The notes: generated by a model from the sequence alone, not told the origin. A DNA stretch of 51,755 bases from an uncultured Thiotrichales bacterium (GCA_903881315.1 CAIRSR010000099.1:1-51755); one strand, 5' to 3'; counted from the first letter of the stretch, positions 1 through 50,820 are shown. A program made the numbers and translations.

Positions 1-3000
1 CTCACCCAAGCGGGCACCTTCCCCGCCAAGGTTGTGGGCACGGGCCTAGTCGTCACCGCTAACGATAGCCTCGCTGGGGCGGATTTCGGCAATTACACCA
101 TCGTTCAGCCGACAGGCCTCACCGCCGATATCAGCAAGGCCCCGCTTCTCGTGACCGCAACGGGTATCAATAAGGTCTACGACAGCACGACCAATGCCTC
201 GGTTACGATTGCTGACAGTCCTTTGGGCAGCGATGCTGTCAGCGTCAATTACAGCGCGAATTACCTCGATAAGAACGTAGGGACTAATAAATATATTGCG
301 GTGAGCGGTATTACGCTTTCTGGCGCGGACGCCAACAACTACCAAGCTAATAGCACAACGAGCACCTTTGCCACCATCACCCCCGCAACCTTAACCGTTG
401 CGAGTACCAGCGTGACCAATAAGACCTATGACGGTACAACCGTCGCGACGCTGACTAATGGAACCTTGGTTGGCCTTTTCGCGGGTGATGTCGTCGCATT
501 AACCGAGGCCGGTGGTTTTGCCTCTAAGAATGTTGGGAGCAGTATTGCCGTTACCGCTAGTGACAGCATTAGCGGGACGGATTTTAATAATTACACGCTG
601 GTGCAACCAACTGGGCTCTCCGCCAACATCACGCCAGCGCCTTTGGTCGTCGTCGGAACGAGCGTTGCCAACAAGGTGTATGACGGAAATGTCACAGCGA
701 CCTTGTACAACGGTAATCTGATCGGGCTCATGTCGGGTGATTTGATCACGCTAAACCAGGCGGGTGGTTTTACGTCCAAGGATGTTGGTGACAGCATTGC
801 GGTAACAGCAAGCGACAGTCTGAATGGCAGCAGCGCATCAAACTACACCTTGATCCAACCCACCGGACTGATGGCCAATATCACCCCCGCACCGATTACG
901 ATCACGGCCAACAATGCCACAAAGACCTATGGCGTAACACTCGGTTTTTCTGGCACCGAATTTAGTATCAGCGGACTTAAGAATAATGAGACGGTCGAAA
1001 CCGTTAGCCTCGGCAGTACGGGCACGGTGAATAATGCGGGGGTTTCTGGCAATCCCTATAGCATTGTGGTCAGTAACGCCACGGGTGGCACCTTTACCAG
1101 CAGCAATTACACAATCATCTATGTCAATGGGGTTCTCACCATTACTCCGGCGAAACTGGTGGTCACGGCCAACGATCAGAGCAAGGTCGGTGGTGCCCCC
1201 GATCCGGCATTCACGTATACCTATTCTGGATTAACCGCTGGCGATACCGATTCGGTATTCTCGGGCGCACTTGGCCGAGTAGCGGGCGAAAGTGCTGGCT
1301 ATCGCGCCATCACGCAGAATACCCTAACCGCTGGCAACAATTATACGATCACGTATATTGGCGCAAATCTGAAGGTCACAGCCCCCACCTTGGCAACATT
1401 TGCGGTTGCAAGTTCGTTAGCGGCGATCAATTCATTTGCTGCACATCTTGGTTCAGCGAGTAATTCGTTTTCTGCCCCCGTAACCTCGACAACCACGCAA
1501 ACGGCACCCGTAACCGTGGCTGCAACCGATAGTTCATTTTCTGCCCCCGCAACCTCGACAACCACGCAAACGGCACCCGTAACCGTAGCTGCAACCGATA
1601 GTTCGCCTGCCACATCGGCCTTTGTCACGGCATTGTCCTCGGGTAGCACGCCCGAGGCGGCAGTATCGGTCGCAAACCAAACCGCGAGTGCACAGGCTGC
1701 CTTGAACAATGAGCAGGTAGTACCGTTATCCGCTGCAAACGCTGCGGTAGCGCCATTAGCCAATGCCCAACCATCCTCAACCTCTGGCGCAGAGGGCAGT
1801 GGCACGTCCAGCAACAGTTCACAGGGCAGTAGCAGCACAACCAACCGCAGTAATGGATCTGGTGGGAGTAGCACTGCGAGCAACAGTGAAGAATCTGAAG
1901 AAAAGGGCACGGCTACGGCCAGCACAGCCACCGGTGGCGCTGCCACCGCCACGGCCAGCCCGGAAACTGGCACCACCACCGCACCTGCCGCCACGGCCAG
2001 TGTCAGCACCACAGAGACTCCTGCCCCTGCTGTCAGCACTAGCACCACCGCCGCACCTGCCACGGTGGCCAATGTCGGCACCACAGAGGCTCCTACCCCT
2101 GCTGTCACTAGCACCACGTCCGCGCCTGTCGCCACTGCCAGTGTTAGCAGCGGCAACGCCACGCCCGTGCAGGAGACAGCCCAACAATCGCTGGTATCGG
2201 CGCTTGCAAGTGGTGCTACACCGGACGTAGCGTTCTCCGCAACAACCCAGTCTGTTGCGGCGCAGGCTGCCCTCACCACGGCCCAAACGGTACCGGTTTC
2301 ATCGTCTAATCAGGTGGCCGCTGCATTGTCATCCGGTGGGAGTGTAGCCACTGCGTTACAGAGCGCTGGCGTCACGGGTGGCGGCAATGATGCGGTGGGT
2401 CAGTCACTGGTCGCGGCCTTGGCGGGCGGATCTTCCCCTGCTGAGGCGATGGCCTCCGCGCAGCAGGTCGTCGCCGCCCAGGCGGCCCTCAGCTCCGCAC
2501 AGACCGTGCCGGTTTCGTCGTCCAACCAGGTTGCTTCTGCCTTGTCTTCGGGCGGCAATGTAGCCACTGCGCTGCAAAGCGCTGGCGTCACGGGTGGCAG
2601 CAATGATGCGGTGGGTCAGTCCTTGGTCGCCGCCTTGGCCGGTGGCGCTTCCCCTGCTGAGGCGTTGGCTTCCGCGCAGCAGGTCGCTGCGGCGCAGGCG
2701 GCGCTCAGTTCCGCACAGACCGTACCGGTTTCGTCATCCAATCAGGTCGCTTCTGCCTTGTCTTCAGGCGGGAATATGGCGGCTGCGCTGCAAAGCGTTG
2801 GGGTTACTGGTGGCGGAAATGATGCGGTAGGTCAGGCGCTGGTTGCGGCATTGGCAGGTGGTTCTGACCCGGCGGCGGCACTGGCCGCCGCGCAACAGGC
2901 AGCCGCTGCGCAATCAGCCCTGAACAAGGCCCAGACGGTCACCACCACGCCCGCTGATGCAACGGTTGCACTCCTCACCAGTGGTGCAAACCCTGCTGCC

Positions 3001-3726
3001 GCGCTAGCAAACACAGGCGGTAGCGCCTATGCCGGCACGGCCCTCGTAGCGGCACTCTCCTCTGGCGAATCCCCAGCAGAAGCAATGGCCGCAATGGCAA
3101 CAGCAGCAGCGGCCCAAGCCGAGCTAAGCAAGGCACAGACGGTCGCGGTCTCGCCGTCTGCCCAGGCCGTCGCGGTGCTAACAACCGGTGGGAATGTGGC
3201 GGATGCCCTGCACGCAGCAGGCATCCCCAACACGCCTGAGATCGGACAGGCCATGATGGCCGCACTCGCAGCGGGTCAGACCCCCGAACAGGCAATCGCG
3301 GCTGCAACCGCCACGACCATTGCCCAGACCACCCTGACCATCGCCCAAACCGTCCCCATGTCGAAGACCGATCAGGTTCTCGCCACCCTGGCGAGTGGTG
3401 CCACCTCTGCGGATGTCACCGCACGGACGGGGGTGGTGCCGCTCATCACGGCGTTGTTCTCCGGGGTTGCACCTGAGGTAGCCGTAATGGCCGCAAACGA
3501 GAATACCGATGCAGTCGCAGCCTTGATCAAGGCGCAAACGGTTGCGGTGTCGCCAACCGATCAGGTCGTCGGGTCGCTCGCGGCGTCTGGTTCCGCCACT
3601 GCCCACGGTTCGGTCTCTACCTCGTCAACCCAGAAATGCGTTTCCACCGACAAGAGGGACAAGAATCACAACCGCGTGACCGATACCCAGCGTACCGATC
3701 AGACCAAGGTAAAGGGTGGTAAATAG
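1..3726 (+). CDS. Giant repeat adhesin / filamentous-haemagglutinin-like exoprotein (5' partial)
   Basis: The reading frame is open from base 1, so the N-terminus and any secretion signal lie outside the window; about 1241 residues are visible. Roughly the first 450 residues are tandem immunoglobulin-like repeats of about 83 residues with the signature NKxYDGTT..ATL and ending in ITPAP, typical of YDG repeats. They are followed by an MBG-type repeat (TKTYGVTLGFSGTEFSISGL). These repeats are known from large surface or two-partner-secreted adhesins. A long Ala/Ser/Thr-rich stalk follows, ending in an array of about 72-residue repeats built around LVAALAGG..PAEA...AQAALSSAQTVPVSSS. The C-terminus is Lys/Arg/Asp-rich, with no LPXTG or visible beta-barrel anchor. 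The likely role is surface attachment or aggregation. The repeat classes are clear from sequence; the secretion route cannot be judged without the N-terminus. Confidence 0.8.
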   Translation, partial: LTQAGTFPAKVVGTGLVVTANDSLAGADFGNYTIVQPTGLTADISKAPLLVTATGINKVYDSTTNASVTIADSPLGSDAVSVNYSANYLDKNVGTNKYIAVSGITLSGADANNYQANSTTSTFATITPATLTVASTSVTNKTYDGTTVATLTNGTLVGLFAGDVVALTEAGGFASKNVGSSIAVTASDSISGTDFNNYTLVQPTGLSANITPAPLVVVGTSVANKVYDGNVTATLYNGNLIGLMSGDLITLNQAGGFTSKDVGDSIAVTASDSLNGSSASNYTLIQPTGLMANITPAPITITANNATKTYGVTLGFSGTEFSISGLKNNETVETVSLGSTGTVNNAGVSGNPYSIVVSNATGGTFTSSNYTIIYVNGVLTITPAKLVVTANDQSKVGGAPDPAFTYTYSGLTAGDTDSVFSGALGRVAGESAGYRAITQNTLTAGNNYTITYIGANLKVTAPTLATFAVASSLAAINSFAAHLGSASNSFSAPVTSTTTQTAPVTVAATDSSFSAPATSTTTQTAPVTVAATDSSPATSAFVTALSSGSTPEAAVSVANQTASAQAALNNEQVVPLSAANAAVAPLANAQPSSTSGAEGSGTSSNSSQGSSSTTNRSNGSGGSSTASNSEESEEKGTATASTATGGAATATASPETGTTTAPAATASVSTTETPAPAVSTSTTAAPATVANVGTTEAPTPAVTSTTSAPVATASVSSGNATPVQETAQQSLVSALASGATPDVAFSATTQSVAAQAALTTAQTVPVSSSNQVAAALSSGGSVATALQSAGVTGGGNDAVGQSLVAALAGGSSPAEAMASAQQVVAAQAALSSAQTVPVSSSNQVASALSSGGNVATALQSAGVTGGSNDAVGQSLVAALAGGASPAEALASAQQVAAAQAALSSAQTVPVSSSNQVASALSSGGNMAAALQSVGVTGGGNDAVGQALVAALAGGSDPAAALAAAQQAAAAQSALNKAQTVTTTPADATVALLTSGANPAAALANTGGSAYAGTALVAALSSGESPAEAMAAMATAAAAQAELSKAQTVAVSPSAQAVAVLTTGGNVADALHAAGIPNTPEIGQAMMAALAAGQTPEQAIAAATATTIAQTTLTIAQTVPMSKTDQVLATLASGATSADVTARTGVVPLITALFSGVAPEVAVMAANENTDAVAALIKAQTVAVSPTDQVVGSLAASGSATAHGSVSTSSTQKCVSTDKRDKNHNRVTDTQRTDQTKVKGGK
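1463..1600 (+). repeat. 69-bp perfect-period tandem duplication inside the adhesin
   Basis: Two nearly identical 69-bp copies (23 codons) lie head to tail, encoding a Ser/Thr/Ala segment containing STTTQTAPVTVAATDSS twice. The copies differ at only a few bases, so the duplication is recent. It keeps the frame. Confidence 0.85.
2185..3520 (+). repeat. 216-bp (72-aa) coding tandem repeat array, degenerating toward the 3' end
   Basis: Units begin at the codons for QSLV/QALV at 2185, 2401, 2617 and 2833, exactly 216 bp apart. More diverged units start near 3037, 3247 and 3439 (spacings 204, 210 and 192 bp), and a distant relative lies near 1615. The 2401 and 2617 copies are the most alike, which suggests recent expansion in the middle of the array. 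Length variation between strains is likely. Confidence 0.85.
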
Positions 3727-26655: not shown

Positions 26656-27834
26656 ATGCTCGCTTCCCTAAAGATCAAAAACTTTAGAATGCTCCAAGAT
26701 TTCCAGGTTAGTCGGCTTGGGCACGTTAATCTCATTGTGGGCAGAAACAACTCCGGAAAGAGTACGGTGCTCGAAGCATTACGGATATTCGCCGGGAATG
26801 CACAGCCAGCGTTGCTTCAGGAGATTGCTGCCAGTCATGGTGAGAAATTTACCATAAGAGAAGAGGATGCAAGCGATGCGGATACGATATTTCCATTTGA
26901 GGACTTCTTTACTGGTAGACAATTTCCAGAAGATGATGATGCAAAGATAGAGATCGGGGAGATTGGTGCTGACCATTCCCGACTACTACAGATTCAGCAT
27001 GTATTTCTAGTGGAAGAAAAAAAGACAGTTACCGATGAACAAACGGGAGAAACACGTACTCGCATAATGCGCCGCCCGGTAGTTCCATCGAGATTGGAAA
27101 GGATGGAGGATGAGCCCGTTCAACCTGCTTTACTGGTGACGAAAGGGGAGCAGCGGTTATTTCCAATCACTCTTGAAATGACCAGACCTCGCTATAGAAC
27201 AGGCGCTCGTGATGCGGATGGCACGATTCCCTGTAGTACGATCCCAACACAGTTTATTTCTATGGATGAGCTGGCAAAGGAATGGGATAAGGTTGTATTT
27301 CAAGATCCACAAACAACCATCATAGCAGCAATGCAGATTATTGAGCCTGATTTTCAGAATCTAACCTTTGTTAATGACTCAACAGAAGAGTATAGGCCAC
27401 CGCATTTTCGTAGAAATCCTCTACGAACGCCTATGGTTAAAATGTCAGGTTTGTCACGTCCGGTCTCTCTGAACAGCCTAGGAGACGGGATGTTGCGGGT
27501 GTTTCAGTTGGTTCTCAAGGTCTTTCCGGCGAAAGGCGGTTTTTTGTTGATTGATGAGTTTGAGAATGGGCTACATTATAGTGTTCAAGAAAAGATCTGG
27601 ACATTGTTATTTAAGTTATCCAAAGATCTAAACATACAGATATTTGCCACAACCCATAGCTGGGATTGTATCGAGAGTTTTTCTAGGGTGGCAAAGCAGA
27701 ACACGGATACCGACGGCGTTCTCTTTCGTGTCGGAAAGAGTGCTCGACAGAGTAATCGGGGCCAGATTATTGCTACCGTCTTTGATAAGGAACAACTGTA
27801 TCGGATTACCCAATCAGATGTTGAGGTTCGCTAA
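26656..27834 (+). CDS. AAA (ABC/OLD-like) ATPase of a probable defence pair
   Basis: 392 residues. Opens with LKIKNFRMLQDFQVSRLGHVNLIVGRNNSGKST: the RecF/OLD-type start and Walker A (residues 29-37). A signature-like SLGDGMLRVFQL, Walker B FLLIDEFENGLH and H-loop ATTHSW follow, so a full SMC/OLD-class ATPase head (AAA_21 type) is present without a long coiled coil. It ends TAATG, sharing a base with the DUF3226 gene. Such ATPase plus TOPRIM-like pairs are the split form of OLD nucleases and are analogous to the AriA/AriB pair of PARIS. Both genes are visibly AT-richer than their neighbours, which fits transfer. The phage-defence role is inference from family and context. Confidence 0.85.
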   Translation: MLASLKIKNFRMLQDFQVSRLGHVNLIVGRNNSGKSTVLEALRIFAGNAQPALLQEIAASHGEKFTIREEDASDADTIFPFEDFFTGRQFPEDDDAKIEIGEIGADHSRLLQIQHVFLVEEKKTVTDEQTGETRTRIMRRPVVPSRLERMEDEPVQPALLVTKGEQRLFPITLEMTRPRYRTGARDADGTIPCSTIPTQFISMDELAKEWDKVVFQDPQTTIIAAMQIIEPDFQNLTFVNDSTEEYRPPHFRRNPLRTPMVKMSGLSRPVSLNSLGDGMLRVFQLVLKVFPAKGGFLLIDEFENGLHYSVQEKIWTLLFKLSKDLNIQIFATTHSWDCIESFSRVAKQNTDTDGVLFRVGKSARQSNRGQIIATVFDKEQLYRITQSDVEVR

Positions 27835-28523
27835 TGACGCAGAAGAATGTGCTGTTAGTGGAAGGTGTCGCTGACAGGGATTTTTTCAGGGAGTTATGCA
27901 AAACCTTAGATCTGTCCACTGAGATCCAAGTTGCCCCTCCGAAAGACTTGGGCGGCACCCATAATACCAAGCAAGGCGTGCTAAACCACTTAAGAGGTGT
28001 ACTGTTACCGCAGATTGAAGATGGACAAATCCAACGCCTGGCTATCGTTGTCGATGCGGACTATGCAGGGGCTCATGGTCTCGGTGTAGCAGGAACCCTT
28101 AATCAGATTAAAGAGATTGTCAAACCTTTCGGCTTTGAATTACCAGAAAACGAGATCTTCCCTAAAGGATTTTGTTTTAAACATTCAGACGGCTTGTCTG
28201 ATTTCGGTGCGTGGATTATGCCGGATAACACAAATGAGGGAATGCTTGAGGATTGGATCAAGTCCTGTATCGTTCGCAGTGAACAACCGTTATTTGGTTA
28301 TGCAAAAGAAGCGGTAGCAGGTCTGTCAGCGCGTAGCTTGCAGAAATTCAAACCCATTCATAGCACTAAGGCCGAGGTTGCTACCTGGCTTGCTTGGCAG
28401 CGCTGGCCCAAGTATGGTATTGAGTATGTATTCAGTAAAGACGAACTGCTGGTAGATAAAGATTCTTCTTTATATCAGGACTTAACCAATTGGTTAGCGA
28501 GTATTTTTAAGAATAACTCGTAG
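27834..28523 (+). CDS. DUF3226 TOPRIM-like nuclease partner of the AAA ATPase
   Basis: 229 residues. TOPRIM-like landmarks are LLVEGVADRDFF (catalytic Glu) and LAIVVDADYAG (DxD pair). The DUF3226 signature includes FGAWIMPDNTNEGMLEDW. Translation is coupled to the ATPase through the TAATG overlap. A nuclease activated or restrained by the ATPase is the expected mode by analogy with OLD and PARIS. The C-terminal part (KAEVATWLAWQRWPKYGIEY) is helical and specific to DUF3226 proteins. Activity against DNA or tRNA cannot be read from sequence. Confidence 0.82.
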   Translation: MTQKNVLLVEGVADRDFFRELCKTLDLSTEIQVAPPKDLGGTHNTKQGVLNHLRGVLLPQIEDGQIQRLAIVVDADYAGAHGLGVAGTLNQIKEIVKPFGFELPENEIFPKGFCFKHSDGLSDFGAWIMPDNTNEGMLEDWIKSCIVRSEQPLFGYAKEAVAGLSARSLQKFKPIHSTKAEVATWLAWQRWPKYGIEYVFSKDELLVDKDSSLYQDLTNWLASIFKNNS

Positions 28524-40112: not shown

Positions 40113-41498
40113 CTATGGTTGCGGCTGTACTAAGCCCATCAGTCGATCGCGCTGTTCTTCTAGCTCCGAGAGTGCACTACTTGCGGGGGTGGCCTTGATG
40201 GCGTCATTGATGTCATCGAGCGTGGTGGCGAGCATCCAAAGGATTGGCCCTTCCTGTTCAACCTGGTGGATACATTTTTTTACATCAGCGAGATCCCCCA
40301 CACGAAACGCAGCACCTAGTAGGGTTGACCGCGCCCAATCATCATCCTCACCGCGCTCAATCTTCCGATGGGCAGCGAGAACCGTGAGACGATCGAGGAA
40401 GTCTGCTTCTTCCTCGTCACCAGCACCGTTGCGCTCGCGCAGTAATCCCGGCAGATTACATACGCAATAATACTCATTCAGATTAAGATTCATGCCCCGT
40501 CGATAGTTTTCTATGGCATGATCGAGATGCCTCTGCTCAATGAGGCAGGGTTTCGTCTCTCCTTTCTTCTGGCGCTCTTCTCGCGCCTCTCGCCAGCGCT
40601 TTTTGTATCGCCCACCGAGGAGTCCCCGACGTTCGGCGGATTCTCCCCGCAGCGCTATCAATTCTTCAAGGCCAGCGATGGCCTGGGTGTGATCACCATT
40701 CTTTGATTGTGCAAGACACCTCTGCTCTCTGACATAATCATCGTTCTGGAAATAGACCGGAAGCCTTTCTATGAAGGCAAGCACGTCACCCCACGCGAGA
40801 GTGTCACGCACGAGGGTGAGTAACTCAAAGGATATTTCTCGCATTTCCAGGCTGCGTCCGGTGCTATAGTGCTTTAGCAGGTCTTGCACGCGCGTGTTTC
40901 GCACCTTTTTTTCCGTCTCTAACCGAACCGCCCTGATCTCTGCCTGAAAGTCGCTGATGCGCTCCATATGATCGCGAAAAACAGTGTTAGAGAATCCCAT
41001 CCCTTCGCTAATAAAGGTATAGTAAGGGGTAAGCGAGTGGATCAGTGTAGGAATGTGTTTAATCAAGTCATGACGAATGCTTTCGGCCTCTTTCGCCGGA
41101 ACCGTTCCGTCCTGGAGGGAGTAGCGATGGGTGCGCATCTGCGCCACGTCGAACAGTGGTTTTGACCAGTTTGCCGCGATCAGGATGCAATGATCTTTTC
41201 TTGCCGCGTGTCGAAGGCCAACCTCATAATACACATTGCCATTGGGCAGGGTGATGTCCGCGAGCACCAGGTCAGCAAACGCTAGGCGCTCGATCATGTC
41301 TTTTACAATGACAGAACCAGGATCCGCATCGGCGCGAACGGCAAGATAACCGCATTCCTCCAGAGCCGGACAAAAGACCCGATCCCAAAGGGCATCGAAA
41401 TCCACTTCCTTTGGCGCACCCGCTGCCGTATCCGATACCCTCCTCTTCCCGAAGGGCATAACCATGAAAGCAATGGGACGTAGCGGTTTTTTGCTCAT
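40113..41498 (-). CDS. TIR/deoxyribosyltransferase-like domain with TPR tail, probable conflict effector
   Basis: 461 residues from ATG 41498 (GGAGG five bases upstream; the longer frame overlaps the chemoreceptor end). The N-terminal Rossmannoid domain (about 5-150) has FMVMPFGKR, DFDALWDRVFCPALEECGY and LAFADLVLADITLPNGNVYYEVGLRHAAR, where the Glu in YEVGLRH is in the place of the catalytic Glu of nucleoside deoxyribosyltransferases and TIR NADases. The rest is helical, TPR-like, matching the DUF4071/TPR-S type known from predicted bacterial conflict systems. I infer a nucleotide- or NAD-processing effector. No partner toxin or sensor gene is adjacent; the NIT chemoreceptor upstream is on the same strand with a 55-base gap. 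Confidence 0.72.
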   Translation of the reverse strand: MSKKPLRPIAFMVMPFGKRRVSDTAAGAPKEVDFDALWDRVFCPALEECGYLAVRADADPGSVIVKDMIERLAFADLVLADITLPNGNVYYEVGLRHAARKDHCILIAANWSKPLFDVAQMRTHRYSLQDGTVPAKEAESIRHDLIKHIPTLIHSLTPYYTFISEGMGFSNTVFRDHMERISDFQAEIRAVRLETEKKVRNTRVQDLLKHYSTGRSLEMREISFELLTLVRDTLAWGDVLAFIERLPVYFQNDDYVREQRCLAQSKNGDHTQAIAGLEELIALRGESAERRGLLGGRYKKRWREAREERQKKGETKPCLIEQRHLDHAIENYRRGMNLNLNEYYCVCNLPGLLRERNGAGDEEEADFLDRLTVLAAHRKIERGEDDDWARSTLLGAAFRVGDLADVKKCIHQVEQEGPILWMLATTLDDINDAIKATPASSALSELEEQRDRLMGLVQPQP

Positions 41499-41553
41499 GT
41501 TGCCTCCACAAACCTGGAGAGACCAAACCACTCGGGGTTTATAGAAAAACCAT

Positions 41554-43425
41554 TTACGCCTGCAAGCGGAAGAAGGCAATACTCTCCCGCAGATTGGCCG
41601 CCTGCGACGATAGCGAATCCGCTGAGGCCGCCAATTGCTCCGCCGCTGCGGCATTGCCCTGGATCACGCTGTCCAATTGCTGCATGGCCAGATTCACCTG
41701 CTCAACACCATCGGCCTGTTCCTGCGAGGCATGGGAGATCTCGCTCACCAATTCGGCGGTCTGGCGAATATCCGGTGCCAATTGCCCAAGCAATGCACCC
41801 GCCTCTTTCGCCACCTGTTCGCTGGTCGCAGAGATGCCGGTGATTTCGGATGCGGCGTGCTGGCTGCGCTCGGCGAGTTTACGCACCTCGGCTGCGACCA
41901 CCGCAAAACCCTTGCCATATGTGCCAACCCGCGCTGCCTCAATGGCTGCGTTCAGTGCCAGCAGATTGGTTTGCCGCGCAATATCCCCGACAATGAGAAT
42001 CTTGCTCGCAATGTCGTTGAGGGCGGTCACCGCTTTGGCCACCGCCTCGCCACCAAGGGTGGCTTGGGTCGCGCCCTCACGCGCCATTTTTTCTGTTGTT
42101 CGGGCATTGTCTAGGTTTTGGGCAAAACTACTGCTCATCTCTTCTATCGCGGCGGCGGTCTCCTCAACCGAGGCGGCCTGTTCTGCCGCCCCAGAGGCAA
42201 GCACCTGTGAACTCTCACTCACCTGTTGACTGTCCGCCGCCATGGCCTCGGCGACGTGGCGCACATTCCCGATCACCTCATTGAGGCGCACTACCATTTG
42301 TCGCACCGCGCCGTGGATACCACTCGCCTGCACCCCGCTCGCAAGACGCAGATCCCCCGCCGCCACCTGTTCGGCGATACGCATCACCTCGGCAGGCTCA
42401 CCCCCCACCTGCACAAGGATCTGGCGGGCCAGCAGCAGCCCGAGTAAGACCGCAATAATGGTTGCCACAGCGGTTAAGCTTAGCACCGTCCAAAAGGTGT
42501 GGGTTGCGTTACGAGAAAGCCCATCTGTCCGTTCTTCTAGGTCATGGGCAAGCCTGTCCTCAACCTTTTTCAAAAGGTCGATGCGAGCCGTGCTCGCCGC
42601 AAACCAGGCCGCCGGTTCAACCCCAAAGTTGCCGACTGCCGCCTTGTCAAAGGCAAGATTGCGGAACTTGTCTACGTCCACGACCGACTGTCCGGCAACC
42701 GTCTGCTTCATGAAGGTTACCTGATCCCGTTCGGCCAACATGGAAAACACCGTAAAGTAGGCCTCCTGTTGCGCCATCAGCGCGGAAAAACGGCGGAACA
42801 GGCCCGGCGCAAAGCCGTTATTCGCGAAGGTATTTACCAGAACCGCCCGCTCAACTCCCGCCATCTCCTTACCCTGCAGAAAATTGACATAGGCAAAGAT
42901 CATGACCGTCACCGAGGCGTCGCTAGATAAACGCGGCATCATTTCTAGTGGGTATAACAGAGAACGAATCACGCCACTGTAAAAGGTAACGGTCTCCGCA
43001 CCGGTCACTTGTAAGGTATCGACCTTGCTACGAAACTCAGCGAGGGCCTGTAACCGAACCTTGGCTTCAGTGAGGCTTTCAGTAAAACCACTGCCGAATC
43101 TGTCTGCATCGAAGGTAGTAAGAAATCCTTGCAGCTCTTTGATCTTGGTATCAGCGAGGTCACGCTGGTCAGCCAGCTCTTTTTTGAAGGCAGTACCTTT
43201 AGCCCCGAGATATCCAGCCGATCGTCCCCGCTCTTTTTGGATCTCATGAACCAAGACACCTATGTTGACACCGAGACTCGCCAATTGGTTTAGGGAACTC
43301 ATGCGCACCGCGACATCCTGTTGATCCAATACCTGGCGCGCACCAAAGAAGATGAGGCCAGAGAGGGGAATGAGCAACATGATGAGAAACTTGCTGCGCA
43401 AAGACAGCGCGTTTAATAGAGACAT
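41554..43425 (-). CDS. Methyl-accepting chemotaxis protein with NIT sensor domain
   Basis: 623 residues from ATG 43425 (AGG six bases upstream; 46 earlier in-frame codons are not family-like). A membrane helix at about 13-33 is followed by a periplasmic NIT domain (about 50-300, [19 protein letters not shown]), a second helix (about 305-330), HAMP, and the signalling coiled coil. The hairpin tip is [37 protein letters not shown]; many receptors read GEAG/GEQG where this has VGTYG. NIT domains sense nitrate or nitrite in studied cases. No C-terminal CheR-docking pentapeptide is present. It may work with the CheB-CheR fusion at 21064-22770. Confidence 0.9.
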
Positions 43426-45974: not shown

Positions 45975-46015
45975 TTATCGGCACGATAAATGATGGCCTG
46001 GTCTTCTGCGTAAAT

Positions 46016-46040
46016 CCCTCCCCGATGAGTCGGGGAGGGG
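46016..46040. terminator. Bidirectional hairpin terminator between topB and the NACHT gene
   Basis: A perfect 10-bp stem CCCTCCCCGA / TCGGGGAGGG with a TGAG loop, followed by GTTGATGTTTT, lies in the 85-base gap between convergent genes. It probably ends both transcripts. Confidence 0.7.
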
Positions 46041-46059
46041 TTGATGTTTTGACTGTCCC

Positions 46060-49000
46060 TCATTTTATCTGGCGGCTGTCATATTCCCACTGCTCGCCAA
46101 GCTTTTCCCAATCGACTGGGGCGGGGGGCCAATCGCGGAGGTTCCAGCCAGCGGCTTTGAGGTTGTTTAGGTAGTTGCGGGCCGTTTCTTCGTCATAAAT
46201 CCTTCGGTAGTGATCGCCAGGTTGGATGTCGAGATCGGCGGGTAGATCGCTCACGTCTGCCCCATGTTTCTCCAGCAAAGAGCGCAGCAAGCGATAGAGG
46301 CGGATGCTCGCAGCCTCGATTGGCTCGGGGGTAAAAGGTTCGTCCGCAAGCTCCTTCAACATTCGGTAGGGGAACCACTCCTCGTTAAAGAGATTTCCGA
46401 GTTCAGTGTCTTTCTGCGCTTCTTCATTCCACAGGGCAATCACCCGTTGTGGGTTGCATTCAGGTTTAGGGCAACTCAGCAGGAAGGCAACTGACTGCGA
46501 CCAAAACAGGAGGGTGGTTGATAGGGTGCGTTGTTCACGGGGAGCCAGCTTTAGAGCCAAATCGCTACGCCAAGCCCGAGCCCGATCCAGAGCCCGATCC
46601 AGATCCAGATCCAGATCCAGAGCCCGAGCCCGAGCCCAATCCAGATCCAGATCCAGAGCCCGAGCCCGATCCAGAGCCCTAGCCCGAGCCCGATCCAGAG
46701 CCCGAGCCCGAGCCCAAGCCCGATCCAGAGCCCAAGCCCGATCCAGAGCCCTCAATTGTTCCATAACAGGCGTTCTGCAAAGGGCTCTTTCTAAGAGGAT
46801 ATTGTAAATCAATCCTTCTGTATTCCAATACAGCGCGAGCAGGTGGCTCCTTTCATCCTCTATTTCCTGCATTATACCAGAAACAGGTGGTTGGTCAAAC
46901 TGGTTGTATAAAAGATACTTCTGGAGAGAAAGGCTGTTGATAATGGAAACGCCAACCGCTGGGTATTCACCATGACAGTCCAACGCCCAGAATAGCCTTT
47001 CTAGCTTGCCTTGATCGGCGCACCATTTCTTTTTAACGGTTACTTCGCCAATCTCTTCCCATTGTGTCTTCAGCCAATCCGCTGGCAAGAATGAGAATAG
47101 AACCAGGGGCCACTCCGCCTCCTCATTGGGGGGCAAGTCTCGCAATTCTTCTGCCATAAAGTTGCGCACCGAGTCTGGCCATTTGTCCCATTGTGGTGCA
47201 ATCCTCTCGAAGGCGTTATACCACCCCCCTGAATCCTTCTCATGACGGGCCTGCCACCAGAATCGTTCCCATAGTCTCTGGCGGAATGGGTCGGTCAGGG
47301 TATGTTCCCCTTCGGTGAAGAGGCGTTGCAAGAATAGCCATTGCGCGGGCGCTAATTCTGCCTCTGGTTCTAGCCAGGTAGCGGTTAGCAGCATTCTCTG
47401 GTAGGAGCGCGGCCCTTTGGTGGCTCGGATGCCGAAATAATGGATGCCGACTGGGTGCCATTCTTCTTTCACTAACCGTGATAGAAACTCTCTGTTAATC
47501 CATTCGTCCCTTTGTGCTAGATACATCTCATCCACTTCTCTCACGAGATGGGAGGCAGCCAAAAATTCCTGGAAGGAAAGGTGGGCAAAACGGATCACAC
47601 CCGTTTCAGGTTCTACCAAAAGTCCCGTCCGCGCTAGAAAATAGTCCACGAACGTAGCGGCGTCTTTTGGGTCATATTGCATGATGGGGCCATCGGAGTC
47701 CTCTGGTTCCTCATCGAGCGGGGTGGCCCATTCTTGTAATTTCGCCTCAAACTCGGGGCGGGTGATCTGAAGGTGAAAGGGGTTGTCCGTTTCGTTCTTG
47801 TTATCATCCCCTTTACCACCGATCTCCCTGGTGTGCAGTAACCAGGCGAGGCGCTCGAGGACGCGCCATTTGTCCTGGTCATCGAAGGTGGCGCTTGCGT
47901 TACGCCCGGCGGACTTGGCCTTTCTGTCCCCATCGAACTTCTTGGCATCGAGGATCGAGAGATAGGCCTCCACCATATCAAGATAGGCGCGTGCCTGGGA
48001 GTTCGGCAGCGGTTTGATCCCATGGATATAGGCGAGCAAGGCGAGAAAGATAGGCCGCCGTTGGATGACGCGCAGCCCATGATTGTCCGCCAGCCCCTGG
48101 GTCAGGGTGCGGCACGCCTTCTTTTGATCCTCCGCATTGTTGGGGTAGCGCACCGCCATCCAGCGCTTGATGTAATCCCCCACCTGTTGGTCATCGAACG
48201 GGCGCAAGAAGCGCCGCTCGAATGGCGTGGGCACGGGCCAATTGGTGCCTTCTTCTTTTATCGTCGCTTGCCAGGTCAAGGCATCGGGCGGCTCGTGGAA
48301 GTCACGCACCCCTTTTGTCTCCGCAGCGGCGGTAAGGCGTAGGCCCACCGGGCGGCCCGTCACCAAAATGGCCGCGAGCGGGAAGCGGGCCGCGAGCGCA
48401 AAGACCAGCGCATGCAGCCGCAGACGCGCCTCTGCGCCGACCTCGTCCATGCCATCGACGGCGATGATCACCCAGCCTTGGTCTAGGAAATACAAAAGGT
48501 TTTCTAAAAAGGCAGCGGGGTCTTGCCCAGCCAGCGCGGGCACGCGGCGTTGGAACCACTGTTGATAGAGGTGCAAGAGCGAGTCGGTGGTCTGTGGGCC
48601 GTGTACGTCCAATTCGCGCAAGACGAGCGGCATCACCATCCGCCGCCCGAGGTAGGTATTCTGTCGGTTATTCTTGCGCATCTCGCCGCAGGCAACCGCA
48701 AGCGAGCGCATCAGCACTGTCTTGCCCGAGCCAGGCGGCCCAATCACCACCACCCGACCGCGCACCCCGAGCGGCTGATCGTCTTTGTCAAAAGTGAGCA
48801 GCAGGTCGATGATGTCCTCGCTCGGCTCCTGTTCTAGGATGTCCTTAAAATTGGTTGCTGTCTCTTTTTCAGCAAGATCATTTTCCGTGAAGCGCTCGGC
48901 CACATGGATGTCGGCGAGCGCTGCCGGATTGGTGTTGCCTGCCCCCCCAACCCCAGTGAGATCCATCGCCGAGAAGAGTTTCTGTAGACCCTGTTGATAG

Positions 49001-49113
49001 CGTTCATACCAATCCATCTGGCGAGGATGATCGGTGGATGGGTATTGCCAGATGCGACTCTCCACATAACCATTCATTCTACGATTCAGGTTAGCGATTT
49101 GGTGTTCGTTCAT
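46060..49113 (-). CDS. NACHT-family NTPase (NLR-like, candidate defence protein)
   Basis: 1017 residues. A short N-terminal helical part precedes the NACHT NTPase: Walker A VVVIGPPGSGKTVLM (GPPGSGKT at 125-132), Walker B WVIIAVDGMDEVGAEAR (214-223), then AAILVTGRP as sensor and RRPIFLALLAYIHG in the winged-helix part. The C-terminal half is helical with no recognised repeat class apart from about 60 residues of alternating LD/RA dipeptides near residue 790-850, encoded by a hexanucleotide microsatellite. NACHT NTPases of this size work as bacterial NLR-type immune sensors. No nuclease or protease domain is evident. It lies 8 bases after the KAP gene, in one operon. Confidence 0.85.
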   Translation of the reverse strand: MNEHQIANLNRRMNGYVESRIWQYPSTDHPRQMDWYERYQQGLQKLFSAMDLTGVGGAGNTNPAALADIHVAERFTENDLAEKETATNFKDILEQEPSEDIIDLLLTFDKDDQPLGVRGRVVVIGPPGSGKTVLMRSLAVACGEMRKNNRQNTYLGRRMVMPLVLRELDVHGPQTTDSLLHLYQQWFQRRVPALAGQDPAAFLENLLYFLDQGWVIIAVDGMDEVGAEARLRLHALVFALAARFPLAAILVTGRPVGLRLTAAAETKGVRDFHEPPDALTWQATIKEEGTNWPVPTPFERRFLRPFDDQQVGDYIKRWMAVRYPNNAEDQKKACRTLTQGLADNHGLRVIQRRPIFLALLAYIHGIKPLPNSQARAYLDMVEAYLSILDAKKFDGDRKAKSAGRNASATFDDQDKWRVLERLAWLLHTREIGGKGDDNKNETDNPFHLQITRPEFEAKLQEWATPLDEEPEDSDGPIMQYDPKDAATFVDYFLARTGLLVEPETGVIRFAHLSFQEFLAASHLVREVDEMYLAQRDEWINREFLSRLVKEEWHPVGIHYFGIRATKGPRSYQRMLLTATWLEPEAELAPAQWLFLQRLFTEGEHTLTDPFRQRLWERFWWQARHEKDSGGWYNAFERIAPQWDKWPDSVRNFMAEELRDLPPNEEAEWPLVLFSFLPADWLKTQWEEIGEVTVKKKWCADQGKLERLFWALDCHGEYPAVGVSIINSLSLQKYLLYNQFDQPPVSGIMQEIEDERSHLLALYWNTEGLIYNILLERALCRTPVMEQLRALDRAWALDRAWARARALDRARARALDRARALDLDLDWARARALDLDLDLDRALDRARAWRSDLALKLAPREQRTLSTTLLFWSQSVAFLLSCPKPECNPQRVIALWNEEAQKDTELGNLFNEEWFPYRMLKELADEPFTPEPIEAASIRLYRLLRSLLEKHGADVSDLPADLDIQPGDHYRRIYDEETARNYLNNLKAAGWNLRDWPPAPVDWEKLGEQWEYDSRQIK
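46575..46748 (-). repeat. Hexanucleotide microsatellite inside the NACHT gene
   Basis: 29 consecutive hexamers of the forms CCAGAT, CCAGAG, CCCGAG, CCCGAT, CCCAAG and similar on the plus strand, encoding alternating Leu-Asp and Arg-Ala dipeptides. Gain or loss of units keeps the frame. Higher-order blocks (CCCGAT CCAGAG CCC) repeat in part. Confidence 0.92.
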
Positions 49114-49121
49114 GGTGCTTC

Positions 49122-50660
49122 TCAGGCCAGATAGCGTTTAATCGTGACATACTCTTGACTAGGGTTTGTCACCGGGAAGCTGCTCAAGAACAATTCCTTA
49201 AAGTGCCCCAAAGAACGGGCGCGCCAAGCGCCAGCCCTCAGAAGACGAAATTGATCGTCTTTCAAACCATCGGTCTTCTTCTCTTCTGTGCGTGGGGCTG
49301 AACCCGGTTCTGACCATTCTTCTTCTGGTGTTTCTTGCGCCAATCCCACCTCTAATCTGGTCGGCACCAAAGGATTCTCCATAAGATACAGAATATAGCG
49401 GTGTCGTTCGTTTTGCTTAAGCGGCTTGCGGCGGCATACGTCCAATAAATCAAGCATCGCGCCAGGTTGCTGCTGGGCCAGCAGTTCATAGATGTCGGGA
49501 AACACGGTGCGCAGATAATGCACCAGCACGAACTGTACCTCCATAGATACTGGTGGCTGGGGATTCTCGGTCAGTAACTCGTACTGGAAACGCAGACCAT
49601 TCAAGAAATTCTTGATAAAACGCGGATTGGGCGGCAGTAATTGCGACAAGGTGGGTAGGATCGGTTCATCCTGCGGTAATTTCCCAGTTACTAGCCAGCT
49701 ACTTTTGAGCAGACTGGCGGTATTTGTCTCGGTGAATGATGGCAAGGTTAGGTGGATCTGAAACATTTTGTCCACATACTGCGCGGCCTCGGTTTGATTG
49801 TAATCCCCACCCTTGATAACCGCCGTCTCTACCTGGGAGCGATCCAGTCCAAAGACAAAGACACAATGCCGACTGCTTAGGTACAAACGCACCGCTTCGA
49901 TCAGGGCATAAGCGGTGGCATGGCCACAACGGTCGAGATCATCAATAAAGATGACCAGGCGTGACGACTCTAGTATTGGATCATTGTCTTTTAAGTCATT
50001 ATATGGGCAAAGTACTTGCTGAATCGCTCTTTCGAATTCCTGCTGGAACCGCTGTGCTTCTACCTTATTAGAGAAGGTCTCATTCCTTCTCGCGGCTGTC
50101 TCAGCAACTAGGTTGTTGGTAAGGGTGCTGCCAAAGGTGAATGGTCTTTTCGACACAAGCCCTACAGCGCTATCCACTAAGGAACCAAAGGAAAGAATGC
50201 CAGCATTAAATATCGTCTTGCTGGCATTGATTCCTGTATCTAGTTGTCGTGGGAGCCAGTCAATTTGCTGGCGGATTTCATGGAGCAGGGGGATTAAGGG
50301 ATTCGGTTCATGCTGATATTGCCAGGGATTAAACCAGATTGCATAATAAAAAGGCATTTTCTGGTTATTAGTGTCCTGGTTTCCCTGGGGAGGACGCAAA
50401 TCATCCGGAAGTGTGCCGTGCGTCCTGATCTCAAACAACGCCTGGTCGGGGCCATCGCGACCACCGAGAGAAGCCATTAAGGTGCGTAACATTGAGGTCT
50501 TGCCCGAACCCCAGCGGCCACCAATGGTCATGGCAAAGGGGGTTGGGGATTCGGTGATCACTCGCCTTGCCTGTTTGGCAAACGCCAGCGCTCCACCGAT
50601 CTCAAACGTCCATTCATCATTGAGGTACGTCGTGGTTTGGTTTTTAGGGGTGTCTGACAT
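49122..50660 (-). CDS. KAP-family P-loop NTPase
   Basis: 512 residues from ATG 50660; an in-frame ATG 14 codons earlier is possible. KAP landmarks are Walker A TIGGRWGSGKTSML (47-55), IWFNPWQYQHE (108-114), Walker B RLVIFIDDLDRCG (233-243) and VFVFGLDRSQVE. Between the Walker motifs a weakly hydrophobic stretch (IFNAGILSFGSLVDSAVGLVS) stands where many KAP NTPases have membrane helices, so membrane contact is uncertain. KAP NTPases occur in phage-exclusion and conflict contexts. The NACHT gene follows after 8 bases, so two STAND-type NTPases are made together. The role is inferred from family and pairing. Confidence 0.87.
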   Translation of the reverse strand: MSDTPKNQTTTYLNDEWTFEIGGALAFAKQARRVITESPTPFAMTIGGRWGSGKTSMLRTLMASLGGRDGPDQALFEIRTHGTLPDDLRPPQGNQDTNNQKMPFYYAIWFNPWQYQHEPNPLIPLLHEIRQQIDWLPRQLDTGINASKTIFNAGILSFGSLVDSAVGLVSKRPFTFGSTLTNNLVAETAARRNETFSNKVEAQRFQQEFERAIQQVLCPYNDLKDNDPILESSRLVIFIDDLDRCGHATAYALIEAVRLYLSSRHCVFVFGLDRSQVETAVIKGGDYNQTEAAQYVDKMFQIHLTLPSFTETNTASLLKSSWLVTGKLPQDEPILPTLSQLLPPNPRFIKNFLNGLRFQYELLTENPQPPVSMEVQFVLVHYLRTVFPDIYELLAQQQPGAMLDLLDVCRRKPLKQNERHRYILYLMENPLVPTRLEVGLAQETPEEEWSEPGSAPRTEEKKTDGLKDDQFRLLRAGAWRARSLGHFKELFLSSFPVTNPSQEYVTIKRYLA

Positions 50661-50820
50661 CGCGCATCTCGGGGGCAGGGGGTGCGATAAAACCATTGCC
50701 ACAGGGCACGCCTACCCTACCACAAGTCTGACCTTTCGTAAAAACTAAGGCACCTAAAGCGAGGGTGCAGACTTCTCGTTGTCGTAGAATTACCCACTCC
50801 GCCCCCCTGAGCGCGACCCC

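Follow-up and report, generated by a model that had tools for sequence, protein, structure and literature searches.

A KAP-NACHT gene pair with a hexanucleotide array in an uncultured Thiotrichales bacterium and other Pseudomonadota

Are a KAP-family P-loop NTPase and a NACHT NTPase that are encoded side by side chance neighbors, or one unit with a common role? This question is raised by a 51,755-nucleotide stretch of DNA from an uncultured Thiotrichales bacterium (GCA_903881315.1, CAIRSR010000099.1:1-51755; hereafter the window, meaning the whole stretch analyzed), in which a preliminary description had proposed the two genes at positions 46060-50660 as a candidate undescribed defense system. 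The KAP gene (49122..50660; 512 amino acids; PF07693, E 7e-26) and the NACHT gene (46060..49113; 1017 amino acids; PF05729, E 1e-8) both lie on the minus strand, and the intergenic gap from the KAP stop to the NACHT start is 8 bp (49114..49121, minus strand), which verified the coordinates, common strand, and spacing given in that description.

Conservation of the KAP-NACHT pair

KAP and NACHT are each present as a single copy in the window's own genome. The NACHT family was searched in this genome, 143 relatives, 369 genomes of the class, and 398 genomes of the phylum, with further searches of 63 genomes from the order that includes Thiothrix G077, of plasmids, and of one genome per GTDB species (with conserved peptides). 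Sixteen clear family members were found, as well as a more distant one (G607) that has a KAP-like fragment upstream. Fourteen clear members, all from Pseudomonadota, have a readable upstream side, and in each of them KAP comes immediately before NACHT on the same strand: the window, Thiotrichales KR_bin-0880, Thiothrix G077, Methylobacter L020, Magnetococcus massalia plasmid MAGMO_p1, and genomes G424, G398, G434, G458, G446, G538, G487, G479, and G665. Homologues normally found apart, which the preliminary description had named as grounds for dropping its proposal, were therefore not what the genomes contained, and the association goes well past what chance would give. The remaining two members could not be scored, as the 5' part of the gene is gone beside transposase-like open reading frames (ORFs) in G003 and the contig ends just upstream in G562.

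The distance between KAP and NACHT ranged from -8 to +16 bp among the members. KAP is interrupted by a contig end in G424 and G665. On MAGMO_p1 (L005, 5199-9311), an IS4-family element divides KAP in two, and the C-terminus of NACHT is missing beside an IS1380-family element, representing a decaying copy of the pair. A reverse search of the 369 gammaproteobacterial genomes with a KAP alignment identified this KAP subfamily only in the three genomes that bear the NACHT, plus one weak partial match. Furthermore, the pairwise identities of KAP and NACHT run parallel (60/58, 54/56, 67/72, and 27/26 percent), and their distances are correlated (Mantel r 0.96, p 0.0001). Because of this constant adjacency and matching divergence, it is nearly certain that the KAP-NACHT pair is inherited as one unit. 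Its distribution is patchy, with the pair occurring in about 1-3% of the genomes searched. No relative of NACHT was found in phage records and only one weak match in viral contigs; viral contigs with arrays also matched the NACHT profile weakly, but these matches were discounted as driven by low complexity.

Domains and structural models

The homologues' KAP starts align with the ATG at 50660 of the window, where an alternative GTG start at 50702 is possible. The KAP motifs are intact (Walker A GRWGSGKT with lysine K54, Walker B FIDDLDRC), as are those of the NACHT protein (Walker A GPPGSGKT with lysine K131, and DGMDE). The NACHT domain covers residues 121-265 (48319..48753, minus strand) and scores above the gathering score of PF05729, and a Walker A motif and DGxDE were present in every member examined. 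Pfam scans of the KAP-linked NACHT proteins identified no known domain N-terminal to the NACHT domain, and none of the C-terminal domains NCH1, NCH2, SNaCT, or LRR was recognized in the NACHT protein by Pfam. Its C-terminal half (46063..47556, minus strand), the presumed sensor, is undescribed and predicted by a low-confidence model to be mainly helical; no Pfam match was obtained in four members even at E 5, the coverage of SNaCT by Pfam not having been checked. Consistent with the preliminary description, domain scans of both proteins detected no nuclease, protease, or TIR domain. The membrane-linked executor suggested in the same description was rejected on hydropathy, since the best 19-residue mean among five KAP proteins was 1.53 and never 1.6, and none of the five had a likely membrane segment.

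A sequence search of solved structures returned no match for either protein. The structure models of KAP and NACHT were built from four sequences. The best PDB matches of the KAP model (predicted local distance difference test, pLDDT, 54) were the RdrA rings of RADAR (E 4e-5, template modeling score (TM-score) 0.37), and that of the NACHT model was NLRC4 (E 1.6e-3), a match too weak for use alone and, with a model pLDDT of 44, no more than a hint.

Hexanucleotide array in the NACHT gene

The NACHT gene of the window contains a mixed hexanucleotide array of 30 units, (LD/RA/WA)n, at residues 788-848 (46570..46752, minus strand), the exact copy number being uncertain in this metagenome-assembled genome. 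Tandem Repeats Finder reported a period of 6 with 29.8 copies at 46573-46751. The array, which the preliminary description did not mention, encodes alternating dipeptides (RALDRAWALDRAWARARALDRA etc.) in the C-terminal region. Long arrays of 27-58 units were present at the equivalent place in six members, including Thiothrix (27 units, RS/LS), Methylobacter (36 units, LS/RS), and G434, G458, and G446 (53, 57, and 58 units, with A or D alternating mainly with L, R, W, and Q). Most genomes searched are fragmented drafts whose repeat lengths are open to misassembly; an assembly artefact of one metagenome-assembled genome is unlikely because such arrays occur in several genomes, including one assembled as a single 4.72-Mb contig. 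Arrays were short or decayed in six members (G003, G424, G538, G487, G479, and G562). In G003, which belongs to the same family as the window's genome, a NACHT C-terminal remnant (L016, 3595-5268) carries an array of eight WS/RS/LS units.

An alternation score of 54-118 was obtained for eight NACHT proteins of the family, versus 10 or less for other ORFs of the window. Genomes commonly contain pure hexamer tracts, whereas nearly all the mixed tracts found in long frames were in NACHT genes of this family, and an ordinary genome-wide hexamer was accordingly disfavored as an explanation. Pure GCTCTG tracts of 6-40 units (L096-L123) occur in many gammaproteobacterial and other genomes, mostly outside long frames, and another long array (L124) is an unrelated AQVLAQ-type coding repeat.

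In arrays of the A/D type, the most frequent unit is G[A/C]TC[T/G]G; its two variable bases alter the residue, while the synonymous bases are nearly uniform. The alanine codon GCT, for example, accounts for 27 of 27 alanine codons inside the array of G446 versus 6 of 102 outside, and other arrays are similar. Proline and glycine are absent from 526 array residues and make up 11% outside. By an unweighted hand count that excludes A/D and L/R swaps, about 30% of the single-base changes to array codons that replace the residue would lead to proline or glycine; this absence is given no firm p-value because the array units are not independent. These patterns may be read as an array that turns over by slippage or unequal exchange and is constrained to helix-compatible residues.

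Whether such turnover serves a purpose is a separate matter. The array alone could well be a neutral microsatellite in a helical linker, expanded by slippage and decayed by point mutation with no use in sensing, a reading that falls just short of an even chance. The losses and decay among members, the unit order, and the commonness of pure hexamer tracts fit it; on the other side, distant members have two different hexamers and yet the same position and the same alternation of small and large residues, and the lack of proline and glycine and the confinement of variation to residue-changing bases speak against it. We tentatively propose instead, as a possibility that is more doubtful than probable, that the array is a selected diversification device of an NLR-like sensor in a KAP-NACHT immune pair. 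Slippage or unequal exchange would then reshuffle two-residue units, with A/D or S alternating with L/R/W/Q, although we hold this process in the sensor to be somewhat unlikely. The outcome, which is likewise put forward with clear reserve, would be heritable and reversible variation that arises neither by reverse-transcriptase hypermutation nor by exchange between long repeats. As array length would shift by two residues per step with the frame kept, sensor variants could arise quickly.

Several observations weigh against a diversification device. The array is absent in three members (KR_bin-0880, G398, and G665) and is therefore not essential. The order of units is mostly indistinguishable from shuffled, with block duplication clear only in G446 (an eight-unit block) and a weaker signal in Methylobacter. 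In favor of turnover, the sole indel between the near-identical NACHT genes of G479 and G562 (about 1017 codons) is 12 bp long and lies inside the array, and the ratio of nonsynonymous to synonymous substitution rates (dN/dS) is 0.65 in the array versus 0.34 and 0.21 elsewhere, on few changes; even so, a single indel in a single gene pair is thin evidence of fast change.

Array-like features are not general in NACHT genes, as seven other plasmid NACHTs examined contained no array (0 of 7; one has a 15-residue alternation). Related features were observed in two cyanobacterial plasmid NACHT genes of another subfamily. In plasmid pMB05 of Acaryochloris sp. 'Moss Beach' (L071, 6612-6858), a 41-copy GCTGTG-type tract begins 8 bp past the NACHT stop, and its other frames code for alternating dipeptides, as if the gene were frameshifted. 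On a plasmid of Calothrix brevissima NIES-22 (L068, 3644-9287), a NACHT-NCH2 gene encodes a short LDLARALDLART stretch between its two domains, and a KAP gene lies 1.7 kb from this gene on the opposite strand.

Proposed function of the pair

More distant relatives of the NACHT protein have fused N-terminal domains (calcineurin-like metallophosphoesterase, nucleoside phosphorylase, TIR, DUF4062, and NNH1), and no KAP match was found at any of the loci of these effector-fused relatives. KAP thus appears to take the place of the fused effector, which is our main hint that KAP may be the output partner of NACHT. The chances seem evenly balanced that an NLR-like NACHT sensor and a KAP ring ATPase form a two-gene conflict or defense module.

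We propose that the two proteins would function together as a STAND/NLR-like KAP-NACHT module. In it, NACHT would be the sensor-switch, whose C-terminal helical region may detect some sign that the cell is infected or invaded, and on detection the NACHT domain would oligomerize. Because the NACHT protein carries no effector of its own, it would signal through the KAP ATPase from the same apparent operon; the two genes are presumably co-transcribed, and their products may be in physical contact. By analogy with RdrA and QatA, KAP may form a nucleic-acid-binding ring, and its activation could lead to cell arrest or a block of the invader.

Alternatively, the pair could be a conserved ATPase module with no part in defense, such as a complex that is regulatory or chaperone-like. 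Its chromosomal copies are located amid housekeeping genes, and no phage-defense model matches both proteins. However, the patchy distribution, the plasmid copy, and the copies broken by insertion sequences are typical of dispensable defense or mobile genes, and both families have a record in conflict systems; we consider this alternative unlikely, with perhaps one chance in a handful.

The roles within a defensive pair might also be reversed, with KAP sensing (e.g., as a ring on phage nucleic acid) and NACHT executing or scaffolding via its C-terminal region. The KAP protein QatA binds DNA in both single- and double-stranded form (PMC13279940), and the NACHT C-terminal half, having no known domain, could be an undescribed effector. 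Characterized bNACHT proteins, however, sense by their C-terminus (PMC12169576), and the variable array is located in the NACHT C-terminus, as expected of a sensor, and so such a reversal is improbable.

The module with NACHT as sensor and KAP as output also faces contrary points. No consistent defense-island context was found, the neighbors being mostly housekeeping genes, and both structural models are poor. In addition, QatB and QatC protect against some phages in the absence of the KAP protein QatA (PMC13279940), and thus the executor role does not necessarily fall to a KAP partner.

If the pair is defensive, it would include an NLR-like protein that has no effector of its own and relies for its output on a KAP ATPase as constant partner, and would thereby bring together two switch families, KAP and NACHT, that are usually studied apart. 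The NACHT protein resembles human immune sensors of the NLR kind, and the pair is fixed across distantly related bacteria. Rapid sensor diversification in bacteria has so far been linked mainly to reverse-transcriptase hypermutation, and the array would provide a clean and testable example of a bacterial immune sensor that is varied by slippage of short repeats.

Genomic surroundings

The genes flanking the pair vary among loci; therefore, the unit consists of two genes, and a third obligate gene was rejected, as neighbors were not constant. In the window, the genes adjoining the pair include a topoisomerase, and a neighboring ORF is one that we take to be a divergent RadA-like gene; in KR_bin-0880, the neighbor is presumably PriA. 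Neighbors at other loci include XdhC, CinA, a molybdopterin oxidoreductase, Sel1 repeats, and a Crp-type regulator.

Just past the NACHT stop, a perfect hairpin, CCCTCCCCGA-TGAG-TCGGGGAGGG (46013..46042, no strand assigned), is terminator-like on the plus strand and belongs to a dispersed repeat with 12 sites in the genome, six of them exact. A TPR-S protein (40113-41654, minus strand; PF20308, E 4e-16) is encoded 4.4 kb from the NACHT end; its N-terminal part has a weak TIR-type effector match, and its ORF overlaps the end of a chemoreceptor gene. At a distance of 17.5 kb from the pair, the stretch of the window with the lowest GC content contains a two-gene candidate defense system, PDC-M38A/B (26656-28523, plus strand), consisting of a PDC-M38A-type ATPase (505 bits, and 183 bits to AbiLi) and a 229-amino-acid partner (267 bits to PDC-M38B). 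Additionally, a 216-bp tandem repeat in three copies (2256-2899) was identified within a large ORF (34-3726, plus strand).

Comparison with known systems

The pair was compared with the defense profiles of PADLOC-DB 2.0.0, NCBIfam, and Pfam. No system was matched at cut-off, in agreement with the preliminary description, in which the pairing was not recognized as a named system. In PADLOC, the NACHT protein matched nothing above 18 bits, and KAP gave only partial matches in the KAP domain (PDC-S20, QatA, and PifA). A literature search found no KAP-NACHT pair or comparable array, with subscription papers mostly missing from its coverage.

QatA is the KAP NTPase of the multi-gene system QatABCD and forms a DNA-binding heptamer or octamer (PMC13279940). 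The KAP proteins studied here score 64-83 bits against the PADLOC QatA models, whereas the window KAP reaches 72.9 bits against the NCBIfam QatA equivalog, whose cut-off is 600, and the pairs scanned have NACHT as the partner and no QatB, QueC-like QatC, or TatD-like QatD beside them. As for RADAR, RdrA was the best structural match of the low-confidence KAP model, but no RdrB adenosine deaminase was present among the neighbors scanned. That the pair represents a divergent form of Qat or RADAR, with partners lost or swapped, is very improbable, because, despite the QatA scores and the fold match to RdrA, the QatA cut-off is missed by far, no member locus with Qat or Rdr genes was seen, and the partner is NACHT in every case. 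PifA and PDC-S20 are likewise KAP proteins, and PDC-S20, listed in PADLOC as a candidate only, was the top PADLOC match for most KAP proteins here (67-98 bits); these matches are partial, confined to the KAP domain, and the models are for single proteins with no known NACHT pairing. Membership in Qat, RADAR, or PifA was thus rejected or below threshold on scores and partners.

Sensors diversified by diversity-generating retroelements (DGRs), such as those of Thiohalocapsa PB-PSB1 (PMC10907252), share with the reading proposed here the idea of a rapidly diversified sensor on a NACHT/STAND switch. In these, a reverse transcriptase targets point mutation to a CLec domain (PMC10907252), whereas the NACHT protein here has a repeat array, and no CLec domain was found in it by Pfam.

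The anti-phage, NLR-related bNACHT proteins (e.g., bNACHT02, 12, and 25) share the central NACHT domain and a large C-terminal region. Those of clade 14 have no discernible effector, and some experimentally active bNACHTs lack an N-terminal effector (PMC12169576). The bNACHTs have SNaCT or NCH1 C-termini, with no KAP partner mentioned (PMC12169576); in the pair described here, by contrast, KAP is the constant partner, the C-terminus is undescribed, and the NACHT gene contains a hexanucleotide array.
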